Positions 1,732 to 35,880 of a stretch of 64,000 bases of DNA are shown piece by piece. The stretch is taken from the NCBI RefSeq assembly GCF_003386195.1, contig NZ_QRDX01000009.1, forward strand, positions 1-64,000, read 5' to 3'. The notes under the pieces are model-generated. The model was not told the DNA's origin. It searched no databases and saw nothing but the letters and a program-made list of their open reading frames with translations. Each line of letters opens with the position of its first letter. Positions within the stretch are counted from its first letter, which is position 1. Origin of the DNA: Seonamhaeicola aphaedonensis (GTDB lineage Bacteria; Bacteroidota; Bacteroidia; Flavobacteriales; Flavobacteriaceae). The position numbers and the translations under genes were made by a program.

Positions 1732-2562
1732 TTAATGTTCTAAGAAATCGATAAGGTGTTTTCTATACTTATAATAATCGTCGTGTTCAAGAACCGCTTT
1801 TCGTGTTCTTGGGCGTTCAAAATCAATTTCTAAAACATCCCCGATTTTTGCTCTTGGACCACTCGTCATCATGACCACTCTATCAGCTAAAAAAATGGCT
1901 TCATCAACATCGTGGGTAATCATAACTGCTGTAATTTTTTCTTTGTTCCAAATATCAATTAAAGTGTCTTGAAGTTCCCCTCTTGTTAGAGAGTCTAACA
2001 TCCCAAAAGGCTCGTCTAATAACAACACTTTTGGCTTTATTGCAAAGGCTCTAGCAATACCAACACGTTGCTGCATACCTTGCGATAGATCTGACGCCTT
2101 TTTATGAAATGCATCTTCTAAACCAACTTTTTGTAAATAATATTTTGCAATATCATTACGTTGGACTTTGGTAGCATCTGGAAACACTTGGTTAACACCC
2201 AACAATACATTTTGTAGTGATGTCATCCAGGGCATTAAACTAGGTGCTTGAAAAATAACACCTCTATCAGGTCCTGGCCCCTTAATATGTCTTCCTAACA
2301 CCGAAATATTCCCTCCAGAAATTGGATTCAATCCCGCAATCATAGAAAGCATCGTAGTTTTACCACATCCAGAATGCCCAATAATAGTAACAAACTCTTC
2401 TTTTTTAATTTGAAGGTTCAAGTCTTCTAGAACCACATAATCGCCTTTTGGTGTTGGATAAACTTTCTTTAGCTGCTTTAAATCTAACATCACTTCATTT
2501 GAAGGAAACAATCCGTTCTCCTCCAACCCAGTTGTTTTTTTATCTTTTATAATTGTACTCAT
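1732..2562 (-). CDS. nrtD: Nitrate ABC transporter ATP-binding protein (NrtD-like)
   Basis: 276 residues. Visible ABC ATPase motifs are Walker A GHSGCGKTT (about residue 62), signature LSQGMQQRVGIARAF and Walker B VLLLDEPFGMLD, then an H-loop MITHDVDEA. The sequence is of the NrtC/NrtD-SsuB-TauB group that powers import of nitrate, sulfonates and related compounds. It is last in the run nrtA-B-C-D; the gap to the preceding ATPase gene is 9 bases. Two separate single-domain ATPases are encoded, so the transporter is probably a heterodimer of ATPases; the NrtC here lacks the solute-binding-like C-terminal domain found in cyanobacterial NrtC. Substrate is assigned from the neighbouring NrtA. Confidence 0.88.
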   Translation of the reverse strand: MSTIIKDKKTTGLEENGLFPSNEVMLDLKQLKKVYPTPKGDYVVLEDLNLQIKKEEFVTIIGHSGCGKTTMLSMIAGLNPISGGNISVLGRHIKGPGPDRGVIFQAPSLMPWMTSLQNVLLGVNQVFPDATKVQRNDIAKYYLQKVGLEDAFHKKASDLSQGMQQRVGIARAFAIKPKVLLLDEPFGMLDSLTRGELQDTLIDIWNKEKITAVMITHDVDEAIFLADRVVMMTSGPRAKIGDVLEIDFERPRTRKAVLEHDDYYKYRKHLIDFLEH

Positions 2563-2571
2563 TTGATGTTA

Positions 2572-3420
2572 TTATTTAAATTGATAAACAAAATCTTTTG
2601 GAGTTAAATCTGGTAGTTCATATTCTTCTGTAGCCTCAGATTTTCTTTCATTTCCTATATCCATTAAATACTCTATAATGGCATTACGCGTTTTTTTGTA
2701 ACTTTCATTATCATTCATCTCGGTTTTATCACGAGGTCTTTCAATGTCAATATTAAACTCTGGTCCCAAAGTTGCTCTTGGACCTGGCTTTAAAGGAATA
2801 ATTCTATCCGCCATGTAAATACCTTCATCAACATCATTGGTAATCAATAAAGCGGTACGTTTATCCTTTCCCCAAATATTTAAAATCTGATCCTGAAGTG
2901 TGCCTCTTGTTAAAGCATCTAAGGCTCCTAGAGGCTCATCCATAATAATCATATCTGGTTTCATAGACAAAGCCCTTGCAACTGCAACACGTTGACGCAT
3001 TCCTCCCGATAATTCTCTAGGTAACTTATTTATAGCTGGTGTTAAACCTACCATGTCGATATAGTGAGCTGCTTTACGCTTATAAACCGCTTTTTCTCGT
3101 TTAGGAAAAGCTTCTTTAACAGCCATTAAAACATTTTGCTCTACAGTTAACCAAGGTAATAATGAGTAATTTTGAAAGATTACCCCTCTTTCGTGACTTG
3201 TTCCCGAAACAGGTTTTCCTTTAAACAAAACCTCTCCACTTGTTGGCTCTAATAAACCGTTTATCAAGTTAACCAGAGTTGTTTTTCCACTTCCTGTAAA
3301 ACCTACGATGGCTACAAATTCTCCCTCTTCGATAGACAAGTTGATATTTGATAGTACTTCAGTAGCGTGATCACCTTGACCGTAAGTTTTACTGATATTA
3401 TTTAATTCTAAATATGCCAT
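2572..3420 (-). CDS. nrtC: Nitrate ABC transporter ATP-binding protein (NrtC-like)
   Basis: 282 residues with Walker A GFTGSGKTT, signature LSGGMRQRVAVARAL and Walker B MIIMDEPLGALD. It is a single ATPase domain ending in an acidic tail (about residues 255-282), without the NrtA-like domain of cyanobacterial NrtC. It sits between the permease gene (88 bases upstream) and the second ATPase gene. The H-loop position reads TNDVDEG instead of the usual TxDxxEA with His, in contrast to its partner, which has THDVDEA. This suggests an asymmetric ATPase pair in which this subunit has a degenerate catalytic His. Confidence 0.87.
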   Translation of the reverse strand: MAYLELNNISKTYGQGDHATEVLSNINLSIEEGEFVAIVGFTGSGKTTLVNLINGLLEPTSGEVLFKGKPVSGTSHERGVIFQNYSLLPWLTVEQNVLMAVKEAFPKREKAVYKRKAAHYIDMVGLTPAINKLPRELSGGMRQRVAVARALSMKPDMIIMDEPLGALDALTRGTLQDQILNIWGKDKRTALLITNDVDEGIYMADRIIPLKPGPRATLGPEFNIDIERPRDKTEMNDNESYKKTRNAIIEYLMDIGNERKSEATEEYELPDLTPKDFVYQFK

Positions 3421-3508
3421 AATCTTAATTGTTTATTTGCTGTGTTGTTTATTTGTTAAGTTGTTTTTTTGGGCTAAACGTATAAACAACTGCACAACTC
3501 CATATAAT

Positions 3509-4615
3509 TTATATTGCATCCGTCTTTTCAAATGACACTGAATTTTGAACAAATAACATCAAGCGATCTAACAAGAATCCTATAATCCCAATGACAAACA
3601 TGGCAACAATAATCTTTGCATTAGAATCATTAGCGCCGTTTTGGAATTCCTCCCATACAAATGTTCCTAAACCTGGACTTTGTGCTAATAACTCAATAGC
3701 AATAAGTACCATCCAACCTACTGACATTGTAATCTTTAAACCTGTAAAGATTAATGGTAAAGATGATGGTAAAATCACTTTAAATATTTTTTGAAAAGTT
3801 CCCAACTTTAATACTTTAGCAACATTGATGTAATCTTTATCTACAGCAGAAACTCCCATAGCCGTATTTACTAAAGTGGCCCACATAGAACATAATCCTA
3901 CACTAATAAATGAAATGGTAAATGAACTATCTTCACTAGAGTCAATTAATAAGGTCTTCACAATCATGAAAACTAACAAGTACCATACTACTGGTGACAC
4001 TGGTTTGAAAATTTGAATAAACCAGTTAAAGGCACTCTTTAAAGTAGGACTTAATCCTATAAATATTCCAAGCGGCACAGCTATTAAAAGTGCTAATAAG
4101 AACCCTGCAAATACCGTTTTTAAACTTCTAAAAATTTGATCCACAAATGATGGTCTACCAGTATAAACAATAGGTTCTTTACCTTCTGCAACACGCTTTT
4201 CGTTTAAAGCTGCAGTTTTCTCTGCGAATGCAGCCTTATCTGCGCTAATAATTTGGTGGTCTTTTAATAAAGATTGATACGAATCCCAAACTTTTGCCGG
4301 AGATGGCAACGTATTTGGTTGACAACTGATGTCTCCCGACGCAATACATTCGCGCATTGCTTCGGCAGCCTCAGGACCTTGATCGTTAAGAGCTTTTTCA
4401 ATTTTAAATTCTGCTTCTGTGTTGTACAAAGACTTAGCGCCTAAGTGCCACAGACCTAAAAATAATAGTATGGAAGCAAGCGGTACGACTACTTTACGAA
4501 GAAAACTTTTTAAATCTTCTTTTTCTAACTTCCCTGTAAATAAGTCTTTTAATGTGCTTAAAAAACCTAACCCCATAAACTTAGTTACTTTTCCTAATGT
4601 TATACTTTGCTTCAT
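3509..4615 (-). CDS. nrtB: Nitrate ABC transporter permease (NrtB-like)
   Basis: 368 residues. A first membrane helix (about residues 45-62, VPLASILLFLGLWHLGA) is followed by a long polar stretch (about 65-165) before the standard binding-protein-dependent permease core of five helices. The EAA-type loop is in the later part (LPSSLPLIFTGLKITMSVGW). The core matches the NrtB/SsuC/TauC family. The polar segment after helix 1 is longer than in typical NrtB (about 270-280 residues), making this protein unusually large; it contains two Cys (ECIASGDISCQ) that could form a disulfide. The gene follows nrtA by 33 bases and is probably co-transcribed. Confidence 0.88.
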   Translation of the reverse strand: MKQSITLGKVTKFMGLGFLSTLKDLFTGKLEKEDLKSFLRKVVVPLASILLFLGLWHLGAKSLYNTEAEFKIEKALNDQGPEAAEAMRECIASGDISCQPNTLPSPAKVWDSYQSLLKDHQIISADKAAFAEKTAALNEKRVAEGKEPIVYTGRPSFVDQIFRSLKTVFAGFLLALLIAVPLGIFIGLSPTLKSAFNWFIQIFKPVSPVVWYLLVFMIVKTLLIDSSEDSSFTISFISVGLCSMWATLVNTAMGVSAVDKDYINVAKVLKLGTFQKIFKVILPSSLPLIFTGLKITMSVGWMVLIAIELLAQSPGLGTFVWEEFQNGANDSNAKIIVAMFVIGIIGFLLDRLMLFVQNSVSFEKTDAI

Positions 4616-4648: not shown

Positions 4649-6049
4649 TTATTTTACAGCTTCGTCTTTGTTTCCTATTTTGAAACTATTAATGTATCCT
4701 ATAGGATCTTTTGCATCATACGTTGTACCATCAATAAAATCTGCAGTAGCTGGCTTATAACCATCTGTTTTTGGAATATCACCTGCTGGAATATTTCCCT
4801 CTTCCACTAAAAGATTAGCAGCTTTAGTCCAGATATCAGGTCTGTAAATGTTTTTAATAGTTTCTTCATACCAACCAGCTGGTTTAGCCTCAGGAATTTG
4901 CCCCCATCGTCTCATTTGAGTTAAGAACCATATACCATCAGAGTAAAATGGATACGTAGCATTGTACTTGTAGAATACATTGAAATCAGGCATCTCTCTT
5001 TTATCGCCTTTTTCAAATTCAAAAGTACCAGTCATTGAGTTAGCTAATACAGCTTCATCTGCACCAACATATTGAGACATTGAAAGGATTTTTACAGCTT
5101 CTGCTCTGTTTCCTGGTTCATCTAACCATTTACCAGCTCTTATTAAAGCTTTTGTAACAGCGACAGCAGTATTTGGATAATCATCTACAAATTTCTTTGT
5201 CATTACAAATACTTTCTCTGGGTTATTTTTCCAAATATCATAGTTGGTGGTTACTGGCACTCCAATACCTTTAAATACTGCTTGCTGATTCCATGGCTCA
5301 CCTACACAGTATCCGTAAATGGTTCCTGCTTCAAGAGTTGCTGGCATTTGTGGCGGAGGTGTTACTGATAATAAAACCTCAGCATCAATTTGTCCTTGTA
5401 CATTTTCAGCAGTATACATTCCTGGATGAATACCAGCAGCAGCCAACCAATATCTAATCTCATAGTTGTGTGTAGATACTGGGAATACCATACCCATTTT
5501 AAAAGCTTTACCACTGGCTTTGTAGTCAGCAATTACAGGCTTTAGTGCATCTGCTTTTATAGGATGAATTGGCTTGCCATCTGGACCTGCAGGCACATTT
5601 GGCTTCATTTTAGACCATACATCATTTGAAACCGTAATACCATTACCGTTTAAGTCCATAGAGAATGGTGTAACCAACTCTGCTTGACGACCAAAACCAG
5701 CACCAGCAGCAATTGGCTGACCTGCTAACATGTGAGAACCATCCAACTGACCATCTATAACTCTATCTAATACATTTTTCCAGTTTGATTGAGCTTCAAC
5801 TGATACAAATAGCCCCTCGTCTTCAAAGAATCCTTTTTCTTTTGCAATGGCTAAAGGTGCCATATCAGTTAATTTGATAAAACCAAAAGTTAACTGTGGC
5901 TTTTCAATTTCTAATGTTTTTGTTTTTGTAGTTTCTGTTGAAACATTTTCTGCTATGGCAGCATCCTTTTTCTTGTTACCGCAAGAAAATAATAGAACAG
6001 CCACTGGCAGAATGAAGATTGATTTTTTAATTAGTGCTTTCATATTCAT
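4649..6049 (-). CDS. nrtA: Nitrate-binding lipoprotein (NrtA-like)
   Basis: 466 residues. A lipoprotein signal ends in LLFSC (Cys23), as expected for a membrane-tethered solute-binding protein. The mature part opens with [20 protein letters not shown], typical of the NrtA/CmpA family, and later carries [11 protein letters not shown] and an aromatic-rich C-terminal half. Family members bind nitrate or nitrite in the periplasm and deliver it to NrtBCD. Two Met codons lie two codons apart (6049 and 6043); either could be the start. A 16-bp palindrome shared with other nitrate genes lies 17-32 bases upstream, and a TATATTTG box lies just before that. First gene of the nrtABCD unit. Confidence 0.9.
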
Positions 6050-6065: not shown

Positions 6066-6081
6066 TAAGTAGTATTACTTA
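6066..6081. promoter_or_regulatory. Nitrate-regulon palindrome upstream of nrtA
   Basis: TAAGTAGTATTACTTA: perfect 6-bp arms with N4 between. Unlike the other copies it lies downstream of the best -7 candidate (6091-6098), so it would sit at the transcript start or in the leader, a position more typical of repression. Confidence 0.65.
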
Positions 6082-6259: not shown

Positions 6260-6273
6260 TAAGTACGTACTTA
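6260..6273. repeat. 14-bp palindrome overlapping the cytochrome stop codon
   Basis: TAAGTACGTACTTA uses the same half-sites as the nitrate-regulon operators but with N2 instead of N4 spacing. It covers the stop codon of the pentahaem cytochrome gene and is about 210 bases upstream of nrtA with a terminator in between. It may be a relic or a weak auxiliary site. Confidence 0.4.
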
Positions 6274-6984
6274 GTTTTTATTTAATTTTTTAAGCCATTC
6301 TTCTTGAGAAAGTGCAATATACTTCTTGTCTGTACCGTATGGATCAGTTCCTCCTTCAAAATATTTTTTAACTTCAAGTAAAGGAATGGTATCTTTCATC
6401 TGTTCAGGAACCTCATATCGATGATTACCATGAAAATCATGACATTGAATACAGGTAGTCCACTGCTGGTTAGAGATCAAATCTTCATGCGATATATCTA
6501 AAGGATCATTTTCTACTACTAATTTTTGATGGCAATTCATACAGTAATCAGCTGTTTTAAGAGATACACGTTCTTTATCATGATGCTCTGTATGACAAGT
6601 AATACAAGTAGTAGCATTAATTACCTTGATAGCATCCTTAAATCTCGGTTCTGAAAATCGGTATGTTGGGTGTCTGTCATTGGCTCTGTCATGGCATTCT
6701 AAACAATTGTCTACAGTTACATCTTGCGTTCCGAAATCTACGCCCTCACTCCTAGCTCCAAAAGCATGGGAGATATTTGACTGAATTTGTTGCATTAAAT
6801 TTCCTTTAGCATCTGCATGACATGCAAAACAGGACAAATCTTGATGACCTGTATTCATTGGACCTATGGAAACATATGCTTCTGTGGAATCTAACGTCAA
6901 TATATAAAACAAGGAACTACCAAGTACTAAACCAATAACTCCTCCAATAACTTGCCGTTTTCGCAAAGGGCTTACTTTAAACAT
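6271..6984 (-). CDS. Membrane-anchored pentahaem cytochrome c
   Basis: 237 residues. An N-terminal membrane anchor (about residues 12-30) is followed by five CXXCH haem-binding motifs at residues 52-56, 94-98, 127-131, 148-152 and 178-182, with several extra His available as distal ligands (for example HTEHH and FHGNHRY). The architecture recalls the NapC/NrfH and cytochrome c3-like groups, but the motif spacing does not let me place it in either. It is the last gene of an operon with globin, a haem lipoprotein, a di-haem b membrane protein and a flavin reductase. Inference: it accepts electrons on the periplasmic side of the membrane. The exact redox partner is unknown. Confidence 0.85.
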   Translation of the reverse strand: MFKVSPLRKRQVIGGVIGLVLGSSLFYILTLDSTEAYVSIGPMNTGHQDLSCFACHADAKGNLMQQIQSNISHAFGARSEGVDFGTQDVTVDNCLECHDRANDRHPTYRFSEPRFKDAIKVINATTCITCHTEHHDKERVSLKTADYCMNCHQKLVVENDPLDISHEDLISNQQWTTCIQCHDFHGNHRYEVPEQMKDTIPLLEVKKYFEGGTDPYGTDKKYIALSQEEWLKKLNKN

Positions 6985-6999
6985 AGACTATGTATTTAT

Positions 7000-8031
7000 C
7001 TAAATTTCTATAACAACTTTTTCACTCAAAGGATACGTAATACAGGTAAGTATACTTCCAGAAGCAACATCCTCGTCTGTTAGCAAATGGCCATTGGTCA
7101 TTTTTACTTCACCTTCCAAACATTTAGCTTTACATGTAGAACACATACCTGATCTACATGAATATGGTAAAACAATATTATCAGACAAAGCCTGGTTAAG
7201 TATAGATTTATCACCTCTAACTTGTAATTGATGCTCCTCTCCTTTATACTTTAGCGTAACATCACTTAACAAATTTTTACCAGAAACCTTAACCTCTGGC
7301 GCCTTGAAAACCTCTAGCTTAATTTTATCTCTTGTGATACCGTTATCCTTTAAAATTTCCTTTATTTTTTCCATATAACCAAAAGGGCCACATATCATAT
7401 AAGCATGATCACTGTTATAAGTAATATTATGTTTTACAAAGATTTCATCAATGAGTTTATGCGTTGCTAAACCAACATGGTAATTGTTATTTGACCCTTC
7501 ATAAACCGAAACAATATGCTCTACGGAAAACTTATTTGGATACTCCTTTTCTAATGCTTTAATTTCCTCATGAAAAATAATAGATTCTAAATTTTGATTG
7601 GCGTATAACAAGAGAATCTTGGAATCTTTTTCTTCAGTTAGAACAGACTTTATTATTGAAAACATAGGCGTCACCCCACTACCTCCAGCAAATAATACAT
7701 ATTGCTTTTGGGATTTACTATTGGGATTAATATAAAATGAACCCGCTGGGTCATCTACCTCTAATTTATCTCCTATTTTAAGATTATCATGTACGTAGTT
7801 AGAAACCAACCCCTTTTCAACTCGTTTTATAGTTATTTTTAAATCCTTATCTGTATAAGGGTTACTACTGAATGAGTAAGCACGCTTATGAACCTTATTG
7901 TCAATTGGCACATGGATAGTTAAAAACTGACCAGGCTTATACTTTAGCTTCTTGAAGAAATTACCATTTTTAAAAGATAAGCTTACAGCTTCATTAGTTT
8001 CCTTTATAATATCTTTTACTACTAATTTCAT
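7000..8031 (-). CDS. FAD/NAD(P)H oxidoreductase with C-terminal [2Fe-2S] ferredoxin domain
   Basis: 343 residues, ferredoxin-NADP reductase fold fused to a plant-type ferredoxin, as in PaaE/Hcr-type reductases. The FAD motif RAYSFSS is at about residue 50, the nucleotide-binding motifs are GGSGVTPMFS (about 115) and CGPFGYME (about 212), and the ferredoxin Cys cluster is CRSGMCSTC with a later LTC (about residues 292-335). No membrane segment, so it is cytoplasmic. It begins 4 bases after the stop of the di-haem b membrane gene. Inference: it passes electrons from NAD(P)H through FAD and [2Fe-2S] to that membrane protein, a split version of a ferric reductase/NOX-type system. Confidence 0.85.
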   Translation of the reverse strand: MKLVVKDIIKETNEAVSLSFKNGNFFKKLKYKPGQFLTIHVPIDNKVHKRAYSFSSNPYTDKDLKITIKRVEKGLVSNYVHDNLKIGDKLEVDDPAGSFYINPNSKSQKQYVLFAGGSGVTPMFSIIKSVLTEEKDSKILLLYANQNLESIIFHEEIKALEKEYPNKFSVEHIVSVYEGSNNNYHVGLATHKLIDEIFVKHNITYNSDHAYMICGPFGYMEKIKEILKDNGITRDKIKLEVFKAPEVKVSGKNLLSDVTLKYKGEEHQLQVRGDKSILNQALSDNIVLPYSCRSGMCSTCKAKCLEGEVKMTNGHLLTDEDVASGSILTCITYPLSEKVVIEI

Positions 8032-8035
8032 AGGT

Positions 8036-8518
8036 CTATTTGTAATAAAAAACCATTACAATATGGAATACCATAAGAATGGTAATGATTAATGATAATG
8101 CCACGTGGCTCACCATCCAGCCTTTAAAGAGAGCATCACTATTATTTTTAATAACGTCTAAATTGAAATATCCCAAAATGGTATTTGAAAAGAATATATA
8201 AGATAACAACAATAAATAACCATAACCCATATCCATACTATGCACATAAAAAATCAACGGGCTTATAGCCCCTAACCATTTATGGAAATTTTGCATAGAC
8301 ATTGCATACCTTCTCAATTTTTTACTTGTTCTTACAAGAGAAAGTAACCATTGAAAAGCTATTAAAAGCCCCAAAAATAAACCAGACCATCTTTTATACA
8401 TTTCATCTTGCTGCAATTCTGATAGCCAAAGCCATTCTATTTTCAGAAAAAATTGTACAAAAAATGCTACGAAAAACAACAAGCCTATAAGCGTAGATTT
8501 ATTATTACCTAATACCAT
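8036..8518 (-). CDS. Five-helix membrane protein with two H-x13-H pairs (di-haem b, ferric-reductase-like)
   Basis: 160 residues with about five hydrophobic helices (roughly 9-25, 44-62, 79-95, 100-118, 134-157). His79/His93 and His138/His152 form two pairs, each 14 apart, on two helices. This is the arrangement that binds two b haems across the membrane in ferric reductases and NADPH oxidases. The protein is shorter than those families and has no flavin domain, but the next gene encodes one. I assign it by the His pattern and hydropathy rather than by overall sequence recognition. It is probably the transmembrane electron wire of this operon. Confidence 0.7.
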   Translation of the reverse strand: MVLGNNKSTLIGLLFFVAFFVQFFLKIEWLWLSELQQDEMYKRWSGLFLGLLIAFQWLLSLVRTSKKLRRYAMSMQNFHKWLGAISPLIFYVHSMDMGYGYLLLLSYIFFSNTILGYFNLDVIKNNSDALFKGWMVSHVALSLIITILMVFHIVMVFYYK

Positions 8519-8611
8519 TATAGATATAAAACATTAAATAACATTACAATCAAAGGCCCATATTATATACACAATGAGCCTGATTGCAACATTCATTAAC
8601 ACTAAAATTAT

Positions 8612-9433
8612 TTATTTAGAAGCCACTAATTGCTTCATAGTTTCATAAGACGCTAGTTTTCTAACACTATCTAAGAAAACTTCGGCAGTTGGTAGATAGT
8701 TACCTTCTTCTGGCCATTTATTACCAATTTCAGGTTTTTCACTTTCTTTGAAAGCTTCTATTTCATCCAAATACTCCATATAAATATCTACAGTTCCTTT
8801 GGCATAAGAATTTAAAACAGCTACGGTTTCCTTGTACGTTAGAGAATCTTTTGGATACTGCCATGTCGTTGCCCCCATAACGTCCCCCAATTTCCAGTCT
8901 GACTTTGTTGTTTGCGGATGGTCATTATGACAAGATACACAGGCACCTGCACTTGCTAGGTCTGCAAACATAGCTGTGTGTAATTTTTGATCTTCGTCAT
9001 AAAAAAATTGAGGTTTTTGATCTTTTTTAATCTGATCGAATAATTCGGCTTGTTTTCCTTCAAATTTATTTGCTGCATTTACTGGAAAATCTGAACCTAA
9101 ATACAGACCTAACGGAACTGGTCCTTTTCTAATACTTGTGGCTACACCTCTAAGAAACAGTGCAGGAAGTGGACCTGCCTCTACATCATCTTTTCTCCAG
9201 TCTTCATCAAACTTCATTCCTTGCTTTTTACCCTTTCCTACAATAGCTTTTGTATAAAGCGTTCTAGTTACATCATTTTCTTTTGCTACCATCTCAAGAA
9301 CTTCTTCCACCGAAAAAGCCTTTTCTTCAGTTGCTGTTGCGGACTTTTCTTCTGGCACACCACCACAAGAGACTAATGCTATTCCTAATACATTAAATGC
9401 AATTATTTGTTTTTTAATTTTAGTTAATTCCAT
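8612..9433 (-). CDS. Haem-binding lipoprotein, DUF3365/Tll0287-like
   Basis: 273 residues. A lipoprotein signal ends in ALVSC (Cys23). A single c-type haem motif, CVSCHNDHP, lies in the central part (about residue 167), preceded by a sensor-like region (FFYDEDQKLHTAMFADLASAGA). The layout matches DUF3365 (Tll0287-like) proteins, periplasmic haem proteins thought to be redox or gas sensors or carriers. It lies between globin and the di-haem b gene. Inference: a periplasmic electron carrier or sensor in the same chain. Function is not established. Confidence 0.75.
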   Translation of the reverse strand: MELTKIKKQIIAFNVLGIALVSCGGVPEEKSATATEEKAFSVEEVLEMVAKENDVTRTLYTKAIVGKGKKQGMKFDEDWRKDDVEAGPLPALFLRGVATSIRKGPVPLGLYLGSDFPVNAANKFEGKQAELFDQIKKDQKPQFFYDEDQKLHTAMFADLASAGACVSCHNDHPQTTKSDWKLGDVMGATTWQYPKDSLTYKETVAVLNSYAKGTVDIYMEYLDEIEAFKESEKPEIGNKWPEEGNYLPTAEVFLDSVRKLASYETMKQLVASK

Positions 9434-9454
9434 AATTCTTTCTTTATATGTTAA

Positions 9455-9871
9455 TTATTTATATGCTGCTTCTATCATAACATCTGCCATGATTCCATAA
9501 ACCGATGCCCAAGCATCTTTAACCTCTGGAGTAAAATCATCACCCAGACCTGCTTCAAGTGTGCCTAGTAAAGCCGCTCCTACCGTATCATAATGAAAAG
9601 CTTCAACCTTATACTCAACATGTCGTTTACCTAAATCTTGTAAAATAGGAATTAAAGCCTCAAGATTACTTAGGCCAGCCACAGCTGCAGCTAGCATCGA
9701 CATCAATTTATTTCCTTGCTCTTTCATAGCATCATCACTACTAGGAAAGAGAGGCTTTAATTTTGGATCTAATTCAAATAGTTTACCGTAAAAAATCTCT
9801 GCAGCGGCAGGGGCTATTGGTTTTACTTTTTCAAAAGACTCTTGTACAAGTGTCACTGTTTTTTGTTCCAT
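9455..9871 (-). CDS. Single-domain globin (flavohaemoglobin-type haem domain)
   Basis: 138 residues, the length of one globin fold. FYGKLFELDPKLKPLF gives the B-C helices with Tyr at B10; a Gln follows in the E helix (KEQGNKL); the proximal His is in LGKRHVEYKV. These residues match the haem domain of Hmp flavohaemoglobin and Vitreoscilla haemoglobin, which detoxify nitric oxide or bind oxygen. No reductase domain is fused, but a separate FAD/[2Fe-2S] reductase is encoded three genes downstream. It is the first gene of the operon, with the TAAGTA-N4-TACTTA palindrome 43-58 bases upstream. Inference: NO dioxygenase or NO/O2 buffer used when nitrate is reduced. Confidence 0.9.
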   Translation of the reverse strand: MEQKTVTLVQESFEKVKPIAPAAAEIFYGKLFELDPKLKPLFPSSDDAMKEQGNKLMSMLAAAVAGLSNLEALIPILQDLGKRHVEYKVEAFHYDTVGAALLGTLEAGLGDDFTPEVKDAWASVYGIMADVMIEAAYK

Positions 9872-9913
9872 AATATTTGTTATTAAAAGTCTGTTTTAAC
9901 TCCGAAAAAATAT

Positions 9914-9929
9914 TAAGTATTAATACTTA
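9914..9929. promoter_or_regulatory. Nitrate-regulon palindrome upstream of the globin operon
   Basis: TAAGTATTAATACTTA, a perfect 16-bp palindrome centred about 50 bases upstream of the globin ATG. A -7-like TATTTTTT follows a few bases downstream on the minus strand (one mismatch to TAnnTTTG). Confidence 0.75.
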
Positions 9930-10153
9930 TTTCTGAAACAAAACTAACATGAGAGTTTTAAAATAAATATGGATAAGCGTAGTAATAAATATGTTTTTAC
10001 CCCTAATTTTAAAACAAGATATAACAGTAAAAAAACTGATTTTACAACATAAATTTTATTGACTAAAACCAAGGATTTGGATACAAAAAGATGAAAACAC
10101 TTATCTACAATTAAAGCTAAAGATTGTTAAAAAAAGATATTTTTGATAAATGT

Positions 10154-10903
10154 TTATGAATCCAAAAAGAAATTATGTTCGCTTATCTCTTTCCTGAGAA
10201 GTTCAATATCAGAGATACCTATTTTTTTTCCGTTAGCCTTAATCAAACCTTCTTTCTTAAGTGTTGAAAACACCCTGATTACCTGCTCTTCAGATGTACC
10301 AGCATAATCAGCATACTCTTTTCTACTTAAAGGCAAGTTTAAAAAGCCATTTACCTCACCAAACTTCCTATTTATATATAAAATAGTATCTACAACACGT
10401 TCTCGCACAGTCATTTGAGAGATGGATTTCACTTTATTTTCACTCCTATTCAGCTCATTAGCATAAAAAAGCATCATAGCATAAGTAAAATCAGGGTTAT
10501 TAATTAAAACTTCTTGCAAAAACTCTTTAGAGAAATAGTGTAATTCGACGTTTTGAAGAGCTATAGCTCCAATTGAATAATATTCTTGTGTTCCAAAACC
10601 TCTGTGACCAACAATCTCACAAGCTCTAGCAAAACGAACAATTTGCTCCCTACCATTTATACCTGTTCTAAATACTTTTACAGTGCCACTTTTTATAAAA
10701 AAAAGTCCATTAACAGGCGCTCCTTCTATGATAAATTGCTGTCCTTTTTTACATTTTAAAACAGTACTTCTAGAAGACAACTCTGAATTAAAAAGTATCT
10801 CTGAATAGTTATGAATTAAACAATTTGCGCTACCACAAATATTACACTCCGTGCTAGAGGACAAGTTAAAGTTATTTTTTGTTTGTGATACTATTGCTAA
10901 CAT
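10154..10903 (-). CDS. Crp/Fnr-family transcription regulator with FNR-like cysteines
   Basis: 249 residues from the ATG at 10903. A longer frame from a TTG at 10924 is rejected because that codon lies inside the predicted -7 box. The N-terminus holds Cys20, Cys23 and Cys28 (ECNICGSANC), nearly the spacing of the [4Fe-4S] ligands of E. coli FNR (20, 23, 29); Cys51 or Cys95 could be the fourth. A cyclic-nucleotide-fold effector domain follows (about 40-150) and a winged helix with recognition helix SEEQVIRVFSTLKKEG. The E-x3-R of that helix corresponds to the E209/R213 pair that reads the half-site G in FNR. Probable oxygen- or NO-responsive regulator of the nitrate genes, and autoregulated. 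The Fe-S cluster is inferred. Confidence 0.88.
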   Translation of the reverse strand: MLAIVSQTKNNFNLSSSTECNICGSANCLIHNYSEILFNSELSSRSTVLKCKKGQQFIIEGAPVNGLFFIKSGTVKVFRTGINGREQIVRFARACEIVGHRGFGTQEYYSIGAIALQNVELHYFSKEFLQEVLINNPDFTYAMMLFYANELNRSENKVKSISQMTVRERVVDTILYINRKFGEVNGFLNLPLSRKEYADYAGTSEEQVIRVFSTLKKEGLIKANGKKIGISDIELLRKEISEHNFFLDS

Positions 10904-10921
10904 AATTAATTTACAACACGA

Positions 10922-10943
10922 CAAACTTACGTAATAATACTTA
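10922..10943 (-). promoter_or_regulatory. Promoter and operator of the Crp/Fnr gene
   Basis: The palindrome occupies 10928-10943 (plus strand TACGTA-ATAA-TACTTA). On the minus strand its last TA starts a perfect TAnnTTTG box, TAAGTTTG (10929-10922). Transcription would begin near 10915, about 12 bases before the ATG at 10903, supporting both that start codon and autoregulation. Confidence 0.75.
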
Positions 10944-11182
10944 GTTTTTTAGGTAGAAAACAAATTTTTAAGAAGCTAATAATTTAAGCTGCTTCATTTT
11001 TAATAACAAAAAAAATAAGGGCTCTAAAATTATCAAATGCTCAATATTAACCTACTTAGCTAAAAAAATCGCTAATCAAAATGATTTAGCAAATTTTTAA
11101 TAGAGCACAATTAATTTTAACATTTACAAAATTCAAGAACAAAAAAATCATCGTAAATTAGTTGGTTAAGTCTGTGTGTTAT
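10944..11182. other. Intergenic region between divergent Crp/Fnr and PorP genes
   Basis: About 240 bases of AT-rich sequence. Apart from the operator at its left edge there is only a loose inverted repeat, GCTAATCA/TGATTTAGC, near 11070-11090, which I do not consider significant. No clear promoter box for the plus-strand gene was found. Confidence 0.4.
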
Positions 11183-12190
11183 ATGACCATTGTGAATGTA
11201 TCTTTTTTAAGCATAGTTATATCTCTTAGCATCAAGTACTATAAATTAATAGGCACTCTTATATTTTATTTTATTATACTAAATAACTCAACCTTAACAG
11301 CTCAACAAAACCCTCAATTTTCTCAGTATCTGCAAAACCCATTTGTTATAAACCCTGCAATGACTGGAGTTGAAAATTACGTTGATATAAATATTGCTTA
11401 CAGAAACCAATGGACAGGTTTTAACGGTGCTCCCAAAACAGCAACACTAAGTATAAATGGTGCTTTATATCCATCTAAAATTGGTTATTTACCTGAAGAA
11501 GGAACACATCAAGGTGTAGGAGCTTTTATATACAATGATGGAGCTGGCCCTATTTCGCAAAGTGGATTTTATGGGAGTTATGCTTATCATATACAGCTAT
11601 CGGAAAATTGGTTTTTGTCTTTAGGAACTTTCATAGGTGTTAAACAGTTTAAATTTGATACTAGTGAGGTTATAATATTCGACTCTCCCATAGATCCATT
11701 GATACAAAATATATCTGATTTTAATTTTGATTTGAGTTTAGGTCTTTATACCTATTCTAGAAACATGTTTTTTGGGTTGGCAGCAAACCAAATTCTAAAC
11801 AAGCAAATTAGTTTTTCTGATTCTTATGATGGAAATTCTATAGTATCAAATTATAATTTTTTAGCAGGAGGCAGAATAAATATTCGTGAAGAAATACAGC
11901 TTGTATCTTTTACCTTGCTTAAATTTTCAGAAAACACCCCTGTGAGTTGGGATGCAGGAGCTAAATTAATTTACAATAATAAATTTTGGGGCGGTGCAGC
12001 CTACCGTGACCAAGAAGCGATAGTCGGTTTCTTTGGTTTACGTATTACTGATAATCTCTTGTTTAGTTACTCTTATGATTGGGTAACTACCCAATTCAAT
12101 AACCAACAATCTGGTTCCCATGAAATCATTATTGGCTATAGATTTAGTCTTGATAAATTGAATTGTGCTTGCCCTCAATATTCCTTATAA
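11183..12190 (+). CDS. Type IX secretion PorP/SprF-family membrane protein
   Basis: 335 residues from the ATG at 11183 (an in-frame TTG at 11162 also exists). A hydrophobic leader ends near TAQQNPQFSQY; the mature protein begins QNPFVINPAMTGVENYVDINIAYRNQW, where PQFSQY, NPA.TG and YRNQW are the signature of the PorP/SprF family. These are outer-membrane barrels that work with type IX secretion, usually as dedicated partners of large substrates carrying the gliding-motility (type B) C-terminal domain. The next gene encodes such a substrate and starts at the stop codon (TAATG overlap). The leader is longer than usual, so the true start is uncertain. Confidence 0.85.
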   Translation: MTIVNVSFLSIVISLSIKYYKLIGTLIFYFIILNNSTLTAQQNPQFSQYLQNPFVINPAMTGVENYVDINIAYRNQWTGFNGAPKTATLSINGALYPSKIGYLPEEGTHQGVGAFIYNDGAGPISQSGFYGSYAYHIQLSENWFLSLGTFIGVKQFKFDTSEVIIFDSPIDPLIQNISDFNFDLSLGLYTYSRNMFFGLAANQILNKQISFSDSYDGNSIVSNYNFLAGGRINIREEIQLVSFTLLKFSENTPVSWDAGAKLIYNNKFWGGAAYRDQEAIVGFFGLRITDNLLFSYSYDWVTTQFNNQQSGSHEIIIGYRFSLDKLNCACPQYSL

Positions 12191-15314: not shown

Positions 15315-16532
15315 TTACTTCTTATAACGAAGTTTACCTATTTCAATGCCTATAGCTGTTTTAGCCAAAATAGTAAAAACAAAGGCTCCTAAAGCCCAAA
15401 TACCTAGCGTAACCCCAATTTCAATTCCTGTAGGTATATATTCAGCTATTTTTCCGTATGGACCAGGGATAAAACCAGGAACTATTAAACCAAAACCTTT
15501 TTCAATCCAAATGGCTATAAATAAAATAAAGCAAGCAAAATATAATACCTTGAAATTATTCCTTAGTTTATGGAATGTCAATATCACCGTAGCTAAAATA
15601 TTTAAGGGTATAGCTGTCCAAATCCAAGGCAACAGAGCATCTTTACCATGTAAACCAAAGAAAAGATAATAGGCACTTTCACTATGGTGAGTTGGTGCAT
15701 AAAACTCCTTAAATAATTCTGAAATAAGCATAATTAAATTAATCTGAGCCGCCACAGTAACCACCATTGCTATTTTCTTGATAGTTTTATCTTGAATTTT
15801 GAAAGACGTGCTCGAACGTATTACTGCCAAAACTAAAATAATTAAGGCTGGTCCAGCAGCAAATGCAGAGGCTAAAAAACGAGGTCCTAACAAGGCATTA
15901 TTCCAGAAAGGTCTTGCCTGTAAACCTTGATATAAAAATGCCGTAACCAAATGAATCGCCACTGCCCAAAATACCGATATAAACGCTCCTGGGATATAAA
16001 CTTTCGATTTTGCTTCTTTTCCTTGGTAGTGCCTGAAAAGAATATACAGCGGTATGGTAATGTTAATAAATAAGTACCCATTAAGCACCAAGACATCCCA
16101 GGTTAACATAGAATTTGGAAAATTAAAAACACCTATTTCTGGTATCATATGCCATAAAACAGAAGGCCCACCCATATCAGCAATTACAAAAGCTAAACAC
16201 ATCACTAATGCGGCTACTGCCAAACCTTCACCTATTAAAACAGCTTGTTTAAAATCAATATCTTTTAATACATAGGTTGGCATAACAAGCATTACTGCCG
16301 CAGCTGCAACCCCTACCAAAAAAGTGAAATTTGAAATATATAATCCCCAGCTAACCCTATCTGTCATTCCAGTTACGCTTAGCCCTTCATCTAGCTGAAT
16401 GGAATAACAATACATACCCACCAACATCATGAAGGTTAATGCCGCCATCCATAAATGGTACTTTCTAGAACCTTGCGTTATGGTATCTAAACTATCTCTT
16501 ACTAAACTTTTAAAAACTTTAAATCGTCTCAT
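15315..16532 (-). CDS. NrfD/polysulfide-reductase-type quinol-oxidising membrane subunit
   Basis: 405 residues with about ten hydrophobic helices. The overall pattern matches the NrfD/PsrC family, including ALLGPRFLASAFAAGPALI and long hydrophobic segments throughout. Such subunits exchange electrons with the quinone pool and pass them to a partner ferredoxin subunit, encoded by the preceding gene (gap 15 bases). It is last in the nap operon. Because no NapC-type tetrahaem quinol dehydrogenase or NapGH pair is encoded here, this subunit is the likely quinol oxidation site for nitrate reduction. Confidence 0.85.
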   Translation of the reverse strand: MRRFKVFKSLVRDSLDTITQGSRKYHLWMAALTFMMLVGMYCYSIQLDEGLSVTGMTDRVSWGLYISNFTFLVGVAAAAVMLVMPTYVLKDIDFKQAVLIGEGLAVAALVMCLAFVIADMGGPSVLWHMIPEIGVFNFPNSMLTWDVLVLNGYLFINITIPLYILFRHYQGKEAKSKVYIPGAFISVFWAVAIHLVTAFLYQGLQARPFWNNALLGPRFLASAFAAGPALIILVLAVIRSSTSFKIQDKTIKKIAMVVTVAAQINLIMLISELFKEFYAPTHHSESAYYLFFGLHGKDALLPWIWTAIPLNILATVILTFHKLRNNFKVLYFACFILFIAIWIEKGFGLIVPGFIPGPYGKIAEYIPTGIEIGVTLGIWALGAFVFTILAKTAIGIEIGKLRYKK

Positions 16533-16547
16533 CTCATTAACTGATTA

Positions 16548-17633
16548 TTAGTCCATAAAATACCAAAACTTAGGCTCGGTTCCTAGGTCTTCTCTTAATC
16601 TAAATACTTTCTTGTTTTCCAATACCCATCTAATGGTACTGTTTGGGTCTAGTAAATTTCCGAAGATACGAGCACCCGTTGGGCAAGCCTCTACACAGGC
16701 TGGATTTTTTCCTGCTCTAGAACGCTGAACACAGAATGTACATTTCTCCATAACCCCTTTTTTACGAAGGCGATTACCTAAGTAATGCTGATTCTTATTG
16801 ATTTCTTCTTCTGGCACCTCTGGTTTACTCCAATTAAAACGGCGTCCGTCATATGGACAGGCAGCCATACAGTACCTACAACCTACACACCAGTCATAAT
16901 CCACAACAACTAATCCATCATCTTCGCGCCATGTGGCTTGGACTGGACATACATTTACGCATGGTGGATTATCACAATGGAAACACTGTGTTCCCATATA
17001 AAAATGGCCCTCAGCAGGTACTTCGTGATAGTAATTATCATCAGACTCGTTGAAGTTGAAGCCATTTCCATCTTTCATTTCATGAATACGGATATACTGC
17101 ATCTGCGAATTTCTGTCTTGGTTATTCTCCTCAACACAAGCACTCACACAATCCATATAACCCTGACACTTGGAAATATTGAAAGCATAACCAAATAGTA
17201 CATTTTCTTCAGCATTTTTAGAAGACATACTTATGGTCTTTCCAGTTCGTAATTGATACGAACGTACCAACCTATCAACTGTGGCTTTCTTTTCTTCATC
17301 GGTCATTAACTTGTAGTTCCCTTTAAACTGCTCTTCCCAATCTATTTGGGCTTTTTCCTTGCTTTCATCATCAGAAAACATACTACAAGATGTACTTACC
17401 GCCCCTGCTCCAATAGCTAAACTTGCGGCTAATTGTTTAAATGCGGAGCGACGGTTCATTTTTACATCGAACACTTGTTCAAAACCGTCTTTTCTTTCTT
17501 CTATATGTTTTATTTCCTCATGGTCATGTCCACCACAACCACCAGATTGTTTACCACAACTGCAACTACTCGAAGTTTCTTGGTTCTTGCGACCAATATT
17601 TAAGGAAAACCATTTTTTGTTATCACTGCTCAT
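16548..17633 (-). CDS. Four-cluster [4Fe-4S] ferredoxin subunit (NrfC/DmsB-like) with Cys/His-rich N-terminus
   Basis: 361 residues. The C-terminal part carries the four Cys groups of the NrfC/DmsB family (CQGYMDCVSAC, CFHCDNPPCVNVC, CVGCRYCMAAC, CTFCVQRSRAGKNPAC). A Tat-like signal begins at Arg61-Arg62 (NRRSAFKQLAASLAIGAGAV) and is followed by Cys83 (STSC). Unusually, residues 24-43 before the twin arginines form a Cys/His-rich segment (Cys24, 26, 33; His36, 38, 43). The gene lies 2 bases after the tetrahaem cytochrome gene and 15 bases before NrfD. Role: relay electrons from NrfD to the cytochromes and NapA in the periplasm. Confidence 0.85.
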   Translation of the reverse strand: MSSDNKKWFSLNIGRKNQETSSSCSCGKQSGGCGGHDHEEIKHIEERKDGFEQVFDVKMNRRSAFKQLAASLAIGAGAVSTSCSMFSDDESKEKAQIDWEEQFKGNYKLMTDEEKKATVDRLVRSYQLRTGKTISMSSKNAEENVLFGYAFNISKCQGYMDCVSACVEENNQDRNSQMQYIRIHEMKDGNGFNFNESDDNYYHEVPAEGHFYMGTQCFHCDNPPCVNVCPVQATWREDDGLVVVDYDWCVGCRYCMAACPYDGRRFNWSKPEVPEEEINKNQHYLGNRLRKKGVMEKCTFCVQRSRAGKNPACVEACPTGARIFGNLLDPNSTIRWVLENKKVFRLREDLGTEPKFWYFMD

Positions 17634-17635
17634 AC

Positions 17636-18259
17636 CTATTCTCTTTCTTTTATTATTTGTGTGTTAAACCGTGCAGGCCATCTCGTCTCAAAATGAGGTT
17701 TGTGTGGATTATGACAATTCACACAAGTCATGGACGCTCTTGGTGGTGCCCAACCTCCAATACGTTTCCCATGTGCACCACCTTTCCAATCTTCAAATTG
17801 CTTGGTATGACATTGGTTACACAAATTATAACTGTTATTAAAATCGATACTGTTACCTGTTAAACTTTTAAGGTTATTCATATCATTTCCATCGTGGCAA
17901 GTAACACAATTCATGGTATTTTCATTGGCATGGTGCAACTTAATATCCCAATGCGCTTTCTTACCATCTTTACTTTGTAGTTGCGATAATGGTTTAGAAT
18001 GACACTCTGTACAAGCAAATGATTTAATTTGACTCTTTCTTTCAGGAATTAAAAAACTATGCTCTCCTTCAGTAATCTCAATGGTTTCAACACCTTCTAA
18101 ATAGGGCTCTGAAGACAAGGATGTACCATGATAATTCTCGCTTTTAGCTTTGATTTTGTCTGTTACTCCGTGGTACTCTCCATCACCATGTTTACATGAA
18201 AAAAACAATAGCACTATAAACGAAATACAAACGACTCTATGTATACTATGGTTATTCAT
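17636..18259 (-). CDS. Periplasmic tetrahaem cytochrome c lipoprotein
   Basis: 207 residues. A hydrophobic leader ends at LFFSC (Cys22), a probable though non-ideal lipobox. Four CXXCH motifs are present: CTECH, CVTCH, CNQCH and CVNCH, with extra His for bis-His ligation. It overlaps the napB-like gene by 8 bases and precedes the ferredoxin gene by 2, so it is firmly in the nap operon. Inference: it links the ferredoxin/NrfD module to the NapB-like subunit. I cannot assign it to NapC, which has a transmembrane helix and a different motif layout. Confidence 0.83.
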   Translation of the reverse strand: MNNHSIHRVVCISFIVLLFFSCKHGDGEYHGVTDKIKAKSENYHGTSLSSEPYLEGVETIEITEGEHSFLIPERKSQIKSFACTECHSKPLSQLQSKDGKKAHWDIKLHHANENTMNCVTCHDGNDMNNLKSLTGNSIDFNNSYNLCNQCHTKQFEDWKGGAHGKRIGGWAPPRASMTCVNCHNPHKPHFETRWPARFNTQIIKERE

Positions 18260-18947
18260 TGCTAATTGCTCTTTTAAAGGTTCCTATATCGGTCATTTCT
18301 TTATTATTCGGAACATGACATTGTCTACAATTGATGCGCTCTGGATGCGTTACCCTAATTTCCTTCGGCGCACTTGGTCCGGCATGACAGGACAAACAAT
18401 TTTCGTGCATCTGAATTTGATGCGGAATAATTGGTGGGCTTCCAGCCAAGGCATTATTAATTCCTGCTTTGGGTGCAACAACACTTCTATGCTCAAAAGG
18501 CCTAAATACCCCACTCGCATTTGTTGGCACATGACATTGCCTACAATTAACCAATTCCGGATGCGGCACTACAGGCGCGTAAGCATTAAATTTTTCAGTA
18601 AAACCACCATTTTCATGGCATTTCAAACAAGTATTTGCCCCAATAGTCATTTCATCTTTTATAGGATGCGGAATACTTGGTGGTGCCCCGTGATAAGCTC
18701 TGTTATCATAATAATGTTTCAAAGATCTTTGATGATTTTCATCTACGGGCATATTAGCGTAATCCAACGCATGTTCAGACCGCTCAAAAACCCCTTTCTC
18801 TGATGGAATAATAGAAGACACTTCTGTACTTCTTTCAAAAGGAATATAAGCTTCTTCTTTTCCAATTTGATAGCTAAAATTCCAAACAGCGATAAACGCA
18901 ATAAATAGAATAATAAATAATGAAATGATACCCAGTCGTTTTTTCAT
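18252..18947 (-). CDS. napB: NapB-like nitrate reductase cytochrome subunit, duplicated (tetrahaem)
   Basis: 231 residues with an N-terminal membrane or signal segment (about 5-23). Four CXXCH motifs occur at 107-111, 135-139, 184-188 and 207-211. The two halves look like tandem copies of a NapB module: GAPPSIPHPI (87-96) against GSPPIIPHQI (169-178), and NCRQCHVP (134-141) against NCRQCHVP (206-213). Ordinary NapB is a di-haem protein of about 150 residues. It follows napA by 3 bases. Role: electron donor to NapA in the periplasm. Confidence 0.85.
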   Translation of the reverse strand: MKKRLGIISLFIILFIAFIAVWNFSYQIGKEEAYIPFERSTEVSSIIPSEKGVFERSEHALDYANMPVDENHQRSLKHYYDNRAYHGAPPSIPHPIKDEMTIGANTCLKCHENGGFTEKFNAYAPVVPHPELVNCRQCHVPTNASGVFRPFEHRSVVAPKAGINNALAGSPPIIPHQIQMHENCLSCHAGPSAPKEIRVTHPERINCRQCHVPNNKEMTDIGTFKRAISNE

Positions 18948-18950
18948 AAC

Positions 18951-35167: not shown

Positions 35168-35830
35168 CTATATCAAATGATAGTCACGAGCTTTGTCAGT
35201 CAATTCCTTTAAATTAGAAACCTCAAGTTTTTTCATAAGGTTAAAACGGTGTACCTCAGCAGTGCGCTTACTTATTTCAAGTTCTTCCGCAATATCTTTA
35301 TTATTTTTCAACTCTAGAACTAAACTTAGTATTTGCTTTTCACGTTTAGTTAATTTGAAAGGTAATTGTACAGGTTCTTTCTTTGTTTCTGAAGTAGAAG
35401 AAGAACCATTAACAAAATTATTCATAATAATAGCTGAAACATCACCAGTAAAATATTTGCCTCCGGAAGCCACTTTATTAAGAGCTTTTATAAATTCGTC
35501 TTTACTGGCTCCTTTTAACAAATAACCATCAGCTCCAGCTTGAATAGATTGTACCACATACTCTTCAGAATCATGCATAGATAATACCAAAGTACGCACA
35601 TCTTTATGATTAGTACTCATTTCTTTTACAACCTCAATACCGTTCATTTCGGGCATTCTAATATCAACAATTAGTACTGTTGGTTTATTTCTATTAATCA
35701 CTTCTAAAGCTTCTTTACCATTGGAAGCTTCGTCTATAACTTCAATTCCTGATTGATCTTCTAGAAGTGCTTTGATACCATCTCTAACTAATTCGTGATC
35801 ATCAGCAAGTACAACTTTAATTTTACTCAT
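35168..35830 (-). CDS. NarL/LuxR-family response regulator
   Basis: 220 residues. Receiver domain (1-125) with acidic pair Asp10-Asp11, phospho-acceptor Asp56 (VDIRMPEMNG) and the KA segment later. C-terminal LuxR helix-turn-helix (about 155-215) with LTKREKQILSLVLE and NKDIAEELEISKRTAEVHR. Its own palindrome lies 34-49 bases upstream. Partner of the NarX-like kinase two genes upstream; probable nitrate/nitrite-responsive regulator. Confidence 0.9.
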   Translation of the reverse strand: MSKIKVVLADDHELVRDGIKALLEDQSGIEVIDEASNGKEALEVINRNKPTVLIVDIRMPEMNGIEVVKEMSTNHKDVRTLVLSMHDSEEYVVQSIQAGADGYLLKGASKDEFIKALNKVASGGKYFTGDVSAIIMNNFVNGSSSTSETKKEPVQLPFKLTKREKQILSLVLELKNNKDIAEELEISKRTAEVHRFNLMKKLEVSNLKELTDKARDYHLI

Positions 35831-35879: not shown

Positions 35880-35880
35880 T

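Follow-up and report, generated by a model that had tools for sequence, protein, structure and literature searches.

What might a cluster of five genes do that sets a globin and a flavin reductase beside a small membrane protein and two c-type haem proteins? The question is raised by a 64,000-nucleotide stretch of Seonamhaeicola aphaedonensis DNA (contig NZ_QRDX01000009.1, positions 1 to 64,000; "the window" throughout), in which an initial annotation had placed five open reading frames (ORFs) between 6271 and 9871; all five are found there, on the minus strand. Here, we propose that they encode an inner-membrane electron wire driven by reduced nicotinamide adenine dinucleotide (phosphate) (NAD(P)H), together with a globin that removes nitric oxide (NO), and that the whole is expressed with nitrate assimilation, a reading to which we give a probability of about 0.52. 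The proposal is built on the observed gene content and order, their conservation, natural gene fusions, a palindrome shared with nitrate genes, and co-occurrence with nas and nrt genes. In order of transcription the genes are:

9455-9871, minus strand: globin (gene 1)
8612-9433, minus strand: Tll0287/DUF3365 haem-c Cache lipoprotein (gene 2)
8036-8518, minus strand: five-helix membrane protein of 160 residues, a candidate di-haem b conduit (gene 3)
7000-8031, minus strand: cytosolic flavin adenine dinucleotide (FAD)/NAD(P)H reductase with a C-terminal plant-type [2Fe-2S] domain (gene 4)
6271-6984, minus strand: membrane-anchored, periplasmic pentahaem cytochrome c (gene 5)

Is this a fixed assembly? 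The same five genes, on one strand and in one order, recur in all 24 loci found by scanning named genomes with the membrane protein (the named loci), the closest match being Seonamhaeicola sediminis, whose membrane protein is 90% identical; Zobellia uliginosa (L020) is another carrier. Where starts could be placed, the membrane protein and reductase genes are separated by 4-21 bases and the Tll0287 and membrane protein genes by 54-142; no ATG start was found for the Tll0287 gene of L012 or for the membrane protein gene of L006, L016, L020, L024, L025 and L029, all of which match along their length by tblastn. A single transcript would be in keeping with the common strand, the narrow spacing and the unvarying order. 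A terminator-like hairpin with a 7-pair stem and a T run (6181-6164, minus strand) lies between the pentahaem gene and nrtA; the scan also gave three minus-strand terminator-like matches inside operon genes (9178-9162, 8271-8259 and 7752-7740) and promoter-like sites that were barely commoner than in shuffled sequence (28 against 24.5).

Among 395 Flavobacteriaceae genomes the membrane protein is carried by 38, two with a reductase-cytochrome fusion and the remaining 36 with the five genes, many short loci of this survey ending inside the cytochrome or globin. The survey genomes and the named loci overlap (L007 and G005, for example), and their counts are not summed. The co-occurrence search called for by the initial annotation has thus returned the five families adjacent and ordered in 24/24 loci and 36/38 genomes. 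A membrane protein profile run across 392 Bacteroidota genomes matched its own genome and one remote genome, and we therefore regard the distribution as patchy and, in these samples, largely flavobacterial. A complete operon, 39-63% identical to that of the window, is carried by plasmid p1 of Flammeovirga kamogawensis (Cytophagales), where the membrane protein is annotated as hypothetical and transposase genes lie downstream. Upstream on the same plasmid is hemA (glutamyl-tRNA reductase), which directly precedes the globin (L158:6125-7387).

Could the membrane protein be a conduit for electrons? The initial annotation had read two H-x13-H pairs in it, His79/93 and His138/152, and so do we. Both pairs occur in 52/52 homologues (distinct in their last 120 residues), drawn from 80 of the 82 stretches searched, the two stretches without a match to them being two loci of one remote genome; since the pattern is kept in every distinct homologue, it is not due to chance. 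The four His are likewise invariant in alignments of 23, of 12 diverse and of 25 sequences. Five helices are predicted (6-25, 30-64, 69-97, 100-126 and 128-159; pLDDT, the model's predicted local confidence, 74.8), and over 25 sequences the mean net charge is +5.0 for the loop 63-78 and only +0.12 for the loop 117-134, from which it follows that at least the third transmembrane helix (TM3) runs from inside to outside. With five helices, His79 would pair with His138 on the inner side and His93 with His152 on the outer side, an arrangement matching the pairs 101-209 and 115-222 reported for the NADPH oxidase NOX2 (PMC3591440).

A likeness to the di-haem cores of ferric reductases and NOX enzymes had also been suggested, and profile comparison offers support for a remote kinship. 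Pfam Ferric_reduct (PF01794) is the commonest match of the family, found for 21 of 23 homologues at E <= 1 (best 8.5e-5). When aligned by hhalign with 18 Bacteroidota PF01794 proteins, the family scores E 1.4e-4 (probability 53%); the alignment runs over 107 columns, places the four His in register and has a one-column gap in TM5. Six polytopic controls score 0.008-0.45. A combined family of 19 rows reaches 1.7e-7 (94%) against the FRD set, with controls at 0.16-0.64; five of its rows are CHL proteins, our working label for FRD-like membrane proteins that precede 10- to 16-haem cytochromes (L138-type loci).

Several results tell against a NOX-like conduit. The window protein scores 14.7 bits against PF01794, where the gathering cut-off is 28 (E 0.032), and is without an NCBIfam match; hhalign against five MsrQ-type proteins alone fails, at 0.29. 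The alignment behind the value of 1.7e-7 is confined to 50 columns at the TM3 pair, and much of that value may come from the five CHL rows, which by themselves reach 8.7e-7 with part of the FRD set. In Foldseek, the five-helix model returned nothing at E <= 0.001 (best 0.71; NOX5 at 2.9). In addition, a search of the organism's own genome with PF01794 gave no match, nor did a sequence search of solved structures with the membrane profile. The suggested resemblance is borne out by remote profile homology with collinear His; neither the family score nor the Foldseek search confirms it. We conclude that this is probably a remote four-His, five-helix FRD-type protein, a verdict based on profile homology and the His pattern and not on the family score or the fold search.

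If the membrane protein is a conduit, between what does it conduct? Natural fusions provide the best evidence that electrons may run from the reductase through a b-haem membrane protein to periplasmic haems. In two divergent Flavobacteriaceae (L062 and L063), the reductase, a transmembrane segment and the pentahaem cytochrome form a single ORF of 571 and 581 residues; next comes a Tll0287 protein, which carries a membrane segment at its N terminus, and after it the membrane protein. Haem c is attached in the periplasm, and this fusion therefore fixes the sides, with the flavin in the cytosol and the CXXCH motifs in the periplasm. One remote Bacteroidota genome (L136) has a reductase of NirB-like type, with Pyr_redox_2 and BFD [2Fe-2S] domains, that is fused to a C-terminal membrane domain bearing both H-x13-H pairs; a 10-CXXCH cytochrome and a Tll0287 protein follow. 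Another genome from the genus (L159) repeats the membrane domain, the 10-CXXCH cytochrome and the Tll0287 gene, its contig breaking off within the gene for the membrane domain. That the L136 domain is kin is suggested by its His pattern and shared partners rather than by its score. The joints shift while the partners stay, and the simplest reading would be one electron path from reductase to b haems, to multihaem cytochrome c, to haem Cache protein.

In the surroundings of genome G318, three of 114 genomes match its membrane domain, namely G318 itself, G843 (92%), which also has decahaem and Tll0287 genes, and G840 (2.4e-4), in which none of the partners was seen. When 31 short loci (L083-L111, L032 and L070) were scanned for partners, a Tll0287 gene was found in one, L083 of G318, and a reductase of this operon's type in none. 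One of them, L070, has at 7115-11213 a cNMP-binding and 4Fe-4S protein, a 329-residue protein ending in an H-x13-H helix, and a 10-haem cytochrome. Beside the fused gene of L063, at least 41 bases upstream, is a MOSC_N/MOSC gene (L063:5470-6261), presumably mARC/YcbX-like.

The flavin domain does lie on the gene following the membrane protein, as first annotated, with matches to FAD_binding_6 (4.9e-14), NAD_binding_1 (2.3e-17) and Fer2 (2.2e-15). The reductase is of the PaaE/benzoate-dioxygenase-reductase type (TIGR02160 at 5.2e-78, below cut-off), and its Cys292, 297, 300 and 330 are invariant in 12 sequences. The pentahaem cytochrome has five CXXCH motifs and an N-terminal hydrophobic helix. 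Beyond the five His of these motifs six more are invariant in 11 diverse sequences, hence enough for bis-His ligation of all five haems, and such ligation throughout suggests a role in electron transfer rather than catalysis. The sequence has weak matches among solved structures to chains of 6lod (E 0.048) and 6f0k (0.32), which we take to be ActA; the profile found only NrfH (0.0057), and a structure model was useless (pLDDT 43). Across the 392 Bacteroidota genomes, the pentahaem profile matched 38 at E <= 0.001, its own included, the other 37 being weak multihaem matches (best 6.6e-11).

The fusions also bear on a rival account in which the operon would hold two units: globin and reductase would form an NO dioxygenase resembling the Bjgb-Flp pair, and the membrane protein, pentahaem cytochrome and Tll0287 protein a separate periplasmic chain fed by quinol. 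There is precedent in Bjgb-Flp itself (PMC4724949) and in MsrQ, which has been termed a quinone-binding subunit (PMC8238504). Moreover, in four of eight other Bacteroidota stretches the gene for an FRD-like membrane protein of 190-208 residues stops 4 bases short of one for a 10- to 16-haem cytochrome, and these four stretches yielded no reductase of the kind encoded here:

L138:8945-10817: FRD-like membrane protein and multihaem cytochrome
L140:9505-10933: FRD-like membrane protein and multihaem cytochrome
L141:8028-9723: FRD-like membrane protein and multihaem cytochrome
L142:5377-6814: FRD-like membrane protein and multihaem cytochrome

However, two genomes have the reductase fused to the pentahaem cytochrome and another has one fused to a membrane domain, and in both reductase-cytochrome fusions the globin is not adjacent while the reductase stays with the cytochromes. 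We consider the two-unit account unlikely, if still credible. As for the wire, the flow from NAD(P)H to the periplasm put forward in the initial annotation has gained two kinds of fusion, which tie the reductase to the cytochrome and to the membrane domain, whereas haem binding and the direction of flow are what we infer. Given the fusions and the His pattern, the step from reductase through membrane protein to c haems, taken alone, seems quite likely.

What might lie at the periplasmic end? The gene 2 product matches PF11845 (2.2e-7; 31.8 bits against a cut-off of 24.1) and has a lipobox-like start and one CXXCH, a motif present in all 51 distinct homologues examined. In 51/51 there is no Cys in the 125 residues before the motif and none after it, so that no Cys is available for the Cys/His axial ligation described for the stand-alone type of Tll0287 protein (PMC12889525). 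In the sequence search of solved structures, the Tll0287 profile found nothing and the single protein gave chance-level matches only. A different account would make this protein a sensor, with the chain setting or reading its redox state and the protein reporting NO or redox conditions in the periplasm. When joined to signalling modules, haem Cache domains do bind NO as sensors would (PMC12889525), and a Crp/Fnr regulator adjoins the operon; but no signalling module is fused to the Tll0287 protein, the same preprint assigns the stand-alone forms a redox role, and five or more extra haems would not be needed for sensing. We regard a sensor as very improbable.

At the cytosolic end, the globin matches PF00042 (3.4e-19) and, over its haem domain, the NCBIfam model for NO-inducible flavohemoprotein (9.9e-25, below the whole-protein cut-off), and its domain is kin to the haem domain of Hmp. 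Its matches among solved structures are 3s1i (1.6e-27), 1vhb (6.4e-21) and 1gvh (7.7e-16), the last two of which we take to be a Vitreoscilla-type haemoglobin and a flavohaemoprotein. It is likely a single-domain, flavohaemoglobin-type NO dioxygenase, an activity that we infer, as we do the role of NO. Tandem globins open the operon in L066 (11301-12216) and L067 (7370-8277); the extra globin of L067 has 36% identity and is without His at the position aligned with the proximal one.

When would such an operon be expressed? The answer suggested by its surroundings is nitrate. Three exact copies of the palindrome TAAGTA-N4-TACTTA lie in the window, together with genes for nitrate uptake and reduction:

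9914-9929: palindrome, exact, upstream of the globin; candidate operator
6066-6081: the same palindrome, exact, upstream of nrtA
41646-41661: the same palindrome, exact, upstream of nirB
10154-10924, minus strand: Crp/Fnr-family regulator (cNMP_binding and HTH_Crp_2), upstream of the operon
4649-6049, minus strand: NrtA-family binding protein of a nitrate ABC transporter (NMT1_2, 2.5e-97), downstream of the operon
1732-4615: nitrate transporter permease and two ATPases
31109-34630, minus strand: assimilatory-type nitrate reductase fused to NirB-like FAD/[2Fe-2S] domains, by domain matches
39102-41642: NirB
15315-21275, minus strand: Nap cluster, with NapA, NapB, a multihaem lipoprotein-like cytochrome, a 4Fe-4S protein and an NrfD/DsrP-type membrane protein

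None of 10 simulated first-order Markov windows contained an exact palindrome, and its 10-base core occurs within one mismatch at 13 sites in the window where 5.5 are expected. The motif was picked after the window had been seen, and homologous promoters are therefore the fairer test. Among operon promoters, 33 of 41 homologous ones have it within one mismatch and 28 exactly, these 41 including genomes fetched twice; random 303-base windows of the same loci, a background that includes real palindrome sites, give 143/2000 and 61/2000. The eight promoters beyond one mismatch are those of L024, L025, L029, L065, L066, L067, L069 and L077, the site used for L066 and L067 lying between two globin genes. 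For nrtA the figure is 29 of 33 homologous promoters within one mismatch, and for the regulator 25/37; of the 24 named loci, 21 have a homologue of this regulator ahead of the globin. The nitrate-type palindrome that the initial annotation saw above the operon is thus exact at 9914, and the link to a nitrate regulon is real. The counts within one mismatch for nitrate reductase (8/17) and NapA (7/13), and those at NirB-like starts elsewhere, where the palindrome is not conserved (0/13 exact, 2/13 within one mismatch), are unreliable, because in some loci the nitrate reductase gene was itself taken as the best NirB or NapA match, and because the distances in two rows are impossible.

Further features of these nitrate genes deserve mention. 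Several plasmid homologues of the window NrtA carry a CmpA/NrtA annotation. The nitrate reductase at 31109-34630 matches the NasC family (3.3e-160) and, over its C-terminal part, the NirB family, both below cut-off. Beside it, at 29673-31109 on the minus strand, is a 478-residue protein with a nitrite/sulphite reductase ferredoxin-like half domain and a C-terminal rubredoxin, for which no NIR_SIR 4Fe-4S match was obtained at E <= 0.001; in seven other loci, too, an ORF of 475-480 residues adjoins the nitrate reductase gene. The LuxR-type response regulator (35168-35830) and the PilJ-domain histidine kinase encoded at 35168-38091 on the minus strand are perhaps a nitrate-responsive pair and a candidate to bind the palindrome. 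The quinol side of the Nap cluster is arranged unusually.

Which nitrate system does the operon accompany? We compared the 38 Flavobacteriaceae carriers with 42 non-carriers chosen by handle number from 357 operon-free genomes, as raw counts that ignore kinship. The full-length assimilatory reductase (NasA, 1173-residue type) is present in 37/38 carriers and 6/42 non-carriers, NrtA in 37/38 and 5/42, and NapA (E <= 1e-150) in 22/38 and 3/42; at E <= 1e-60, 13 of the 42 non-carriers match the nitrate reductase query, seven of them through partial or weaker molybdoenzyme matches that were not counted. The operon thus tracks assimilation more than Nap, and periplasmic Nap was rejected as the main user of the chain on the same figures. 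NarK was also considered, as a substitute for the operon, since it is frequent at operon-free nas loci, and was rejected because it occurs in 27/38 carriers and 5/42 non-carriers.

This setting also informs the proposal that the same wire would serve assimilatory metal reduction, reducing periplasmic Fe(III) to supply the iron-rich nitrate and nitrite reductases, with the globin a separate NO defence under a shared promoter. Ferric reductases are among the FRD relatives, some bacterial clusters pair FRD proteins with iron transporters (PMC8238504), and an Nramp-like transporter lies near the L063 copy, with an alpha/beta-hydrolase-like gene between them on the other strand. Yet the Nramp gene is found at one locus only, the palindrome is common to nrtA, and the recurrent nameable neighbours, in a search limited to homologues of window genes, are nitrate genes. 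We judge metal reduction improbable, and neither it nor nitrite reduction, both suggested as end reactions in the initial annotation, has gained direct support here.

Turning back to our own proposal, a wire and a globin serving nitrate assimilation, a second group of results has to be set against it. The genome of L063 (G739) has the wire and no NasA, NrtA or NapA, and the Flammeovirga copy shows no nitrate gene among 16 listed features of an incomplete gene table; the wire itself is therefore not nitrate-specific. Six nitrate assimilators among the 42 non-carriers do without the operon, and the stretches surrounding their nas and nrt genes showed no globin, so the operon is dispensable in these six. 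No globin was found in the L062 and L063 stretches. Scores for the L136 membrane domain are weak (hmmsearch 0.0006-0.001, hhalign 0.038). Finally, in the preprint the stand-alone Tll0287 protein bound NO weakly, and so did its C59A variant, from which the Cys ligand had been removed (PMC12889525), so that the absence of Cys alone is no predictor of NO binding. In G584, which has the wire without the globin, a 121-residue ORF of the nas cluster (L153:6216-6581) has a weak globin-profile match (1.7e-4) and no NCBIfam match, and is perhaps a truncated haemoglobin.

How, then, might the operon work? The cytosolic reductase would take hydride from NAD(P)H onto FAD and pass electrons to its [2Fe-2S] centre. 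Some would go to the cytosolic globin, which would oxidise NO to nitrate with O2; others would enter the membrane protein, reaching first the inner b haem (His79-His138) and then the outer (His93-His152), and continue to the membrane-anchored pentahaem cytochrome; the haem-c Cache lipoprotein would come last and would react with a periplasmic acceptor or pass electrons to one. The likeliest role would be to protect the cell, in cytosol and periplasm alike, from NO arising as a side product when nitrate and nitrite are reduced. Given the globin, the regulon and the Bradyrhizobium precedent, we put NO as the physiological target at close to an even chance; the figure given for the whole proposal lies near those of its parts because the two are not independent. 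A bolder version, which we find rather unlikely, is that one reductase powers a two-compartment NO defence, made of the cytosolic NO dioxygenase and a new periplasmic haem-Cache enzyme (Tll0287 without a Cys ligand) reducing NO or nitrite, and that a wire ending in Tll0287 is a general module that has been joined to various reductases and to cytochromes of either 5 or 10 haems.

Is this a known system under another name? The initial annotation did not recognise the combination as described, and this holds for the full assembly and not for its elements: MsrQ-Fre (YedZ with a flavin reductase) has been described as a split NOX-like pair (PMC5676040), and a nitrate operon with a globin and a flavoprotein is known (PMC4724949). 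With MsrQ-Fre the operon would share an FRD-type haem membrane protein, a separate flavin reductase and a periplasmic electron partner (PMC5676040). Most short FRD forms are reported to have two or three His (PMC3591440), while the protein studied here has all four, on five helices against the six of MsrQ; the operon also has an iron-sulphur reductase of its own, and multihaem and haem-Cache partners in place of a molybdoenzyme. MsrQ-like membrane proteins with NAD modules that feed extracytosolic flavoproteins have been catalogued as well (PMC8238504). As in NOX and bacterial ferric reductases (PF01794), there are His pairs on TM3 and TM5 and an FAD/NAD(P)H module; unlike them, the protein falls below the family cut-off, lacks TM6 and a fused dehydrogenase, and has c-type haem partners.

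The nearest regulatory parallel is narK-bjgb-flp-nasC of Bradyrhizobium, in which bjgb and flp are reported to remove the NO formed in nitrate assimilation and which likewise has a single-domain globin and a flavoprotein in a nitrate-assimilation regulon (PMC4724949). The available text of that study mentions no membrane protein, multihaem cytochrome or Tll0287 partner for it; in our operon two genes separate the globin from the reductase, and the latter is a candidate counterpart of Flp. The gene 2 product resembles Tll0287/sCache_heme proteins in its Cache-type domain with CXXCH (PF11845), and differs from the stand-alone form in lacking a Cys for Cys/His ligation and in belonging, as a constant partner, to what is probably an electron chain across the membrane; according to the preprint, fusion of Tll0287 to a cytochrome c-like domain is found only in Flavobacteria (PMC12889525). 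The pentahaem cytochrome is membrane-anchored like ActA of alternative complex III, to which its sequence match is not significant. In the open-licence literature we found no account of these elements combined with both a multihaem cytochrome and a haem-Cache protein. The parts resemble known families and the assembly appears undescribed.

If our reading is correct, cytosolic NAD(P)H electrons would reach periplasmic c haems by a modular, quinone-free route with a minimal NOX-like core, in the service of nitrate assimilation. Stand-alone haem-Cache (Tll0287) proteins, so far credited only with some redox role, would gain a likely electron donor and a testable function. The operon would also give a view of NOX with its parts still separate genes, in which natural fusions mark the contacts, and a genetic handle on NO stress in nitrate-assimilating marine flavobacteria.

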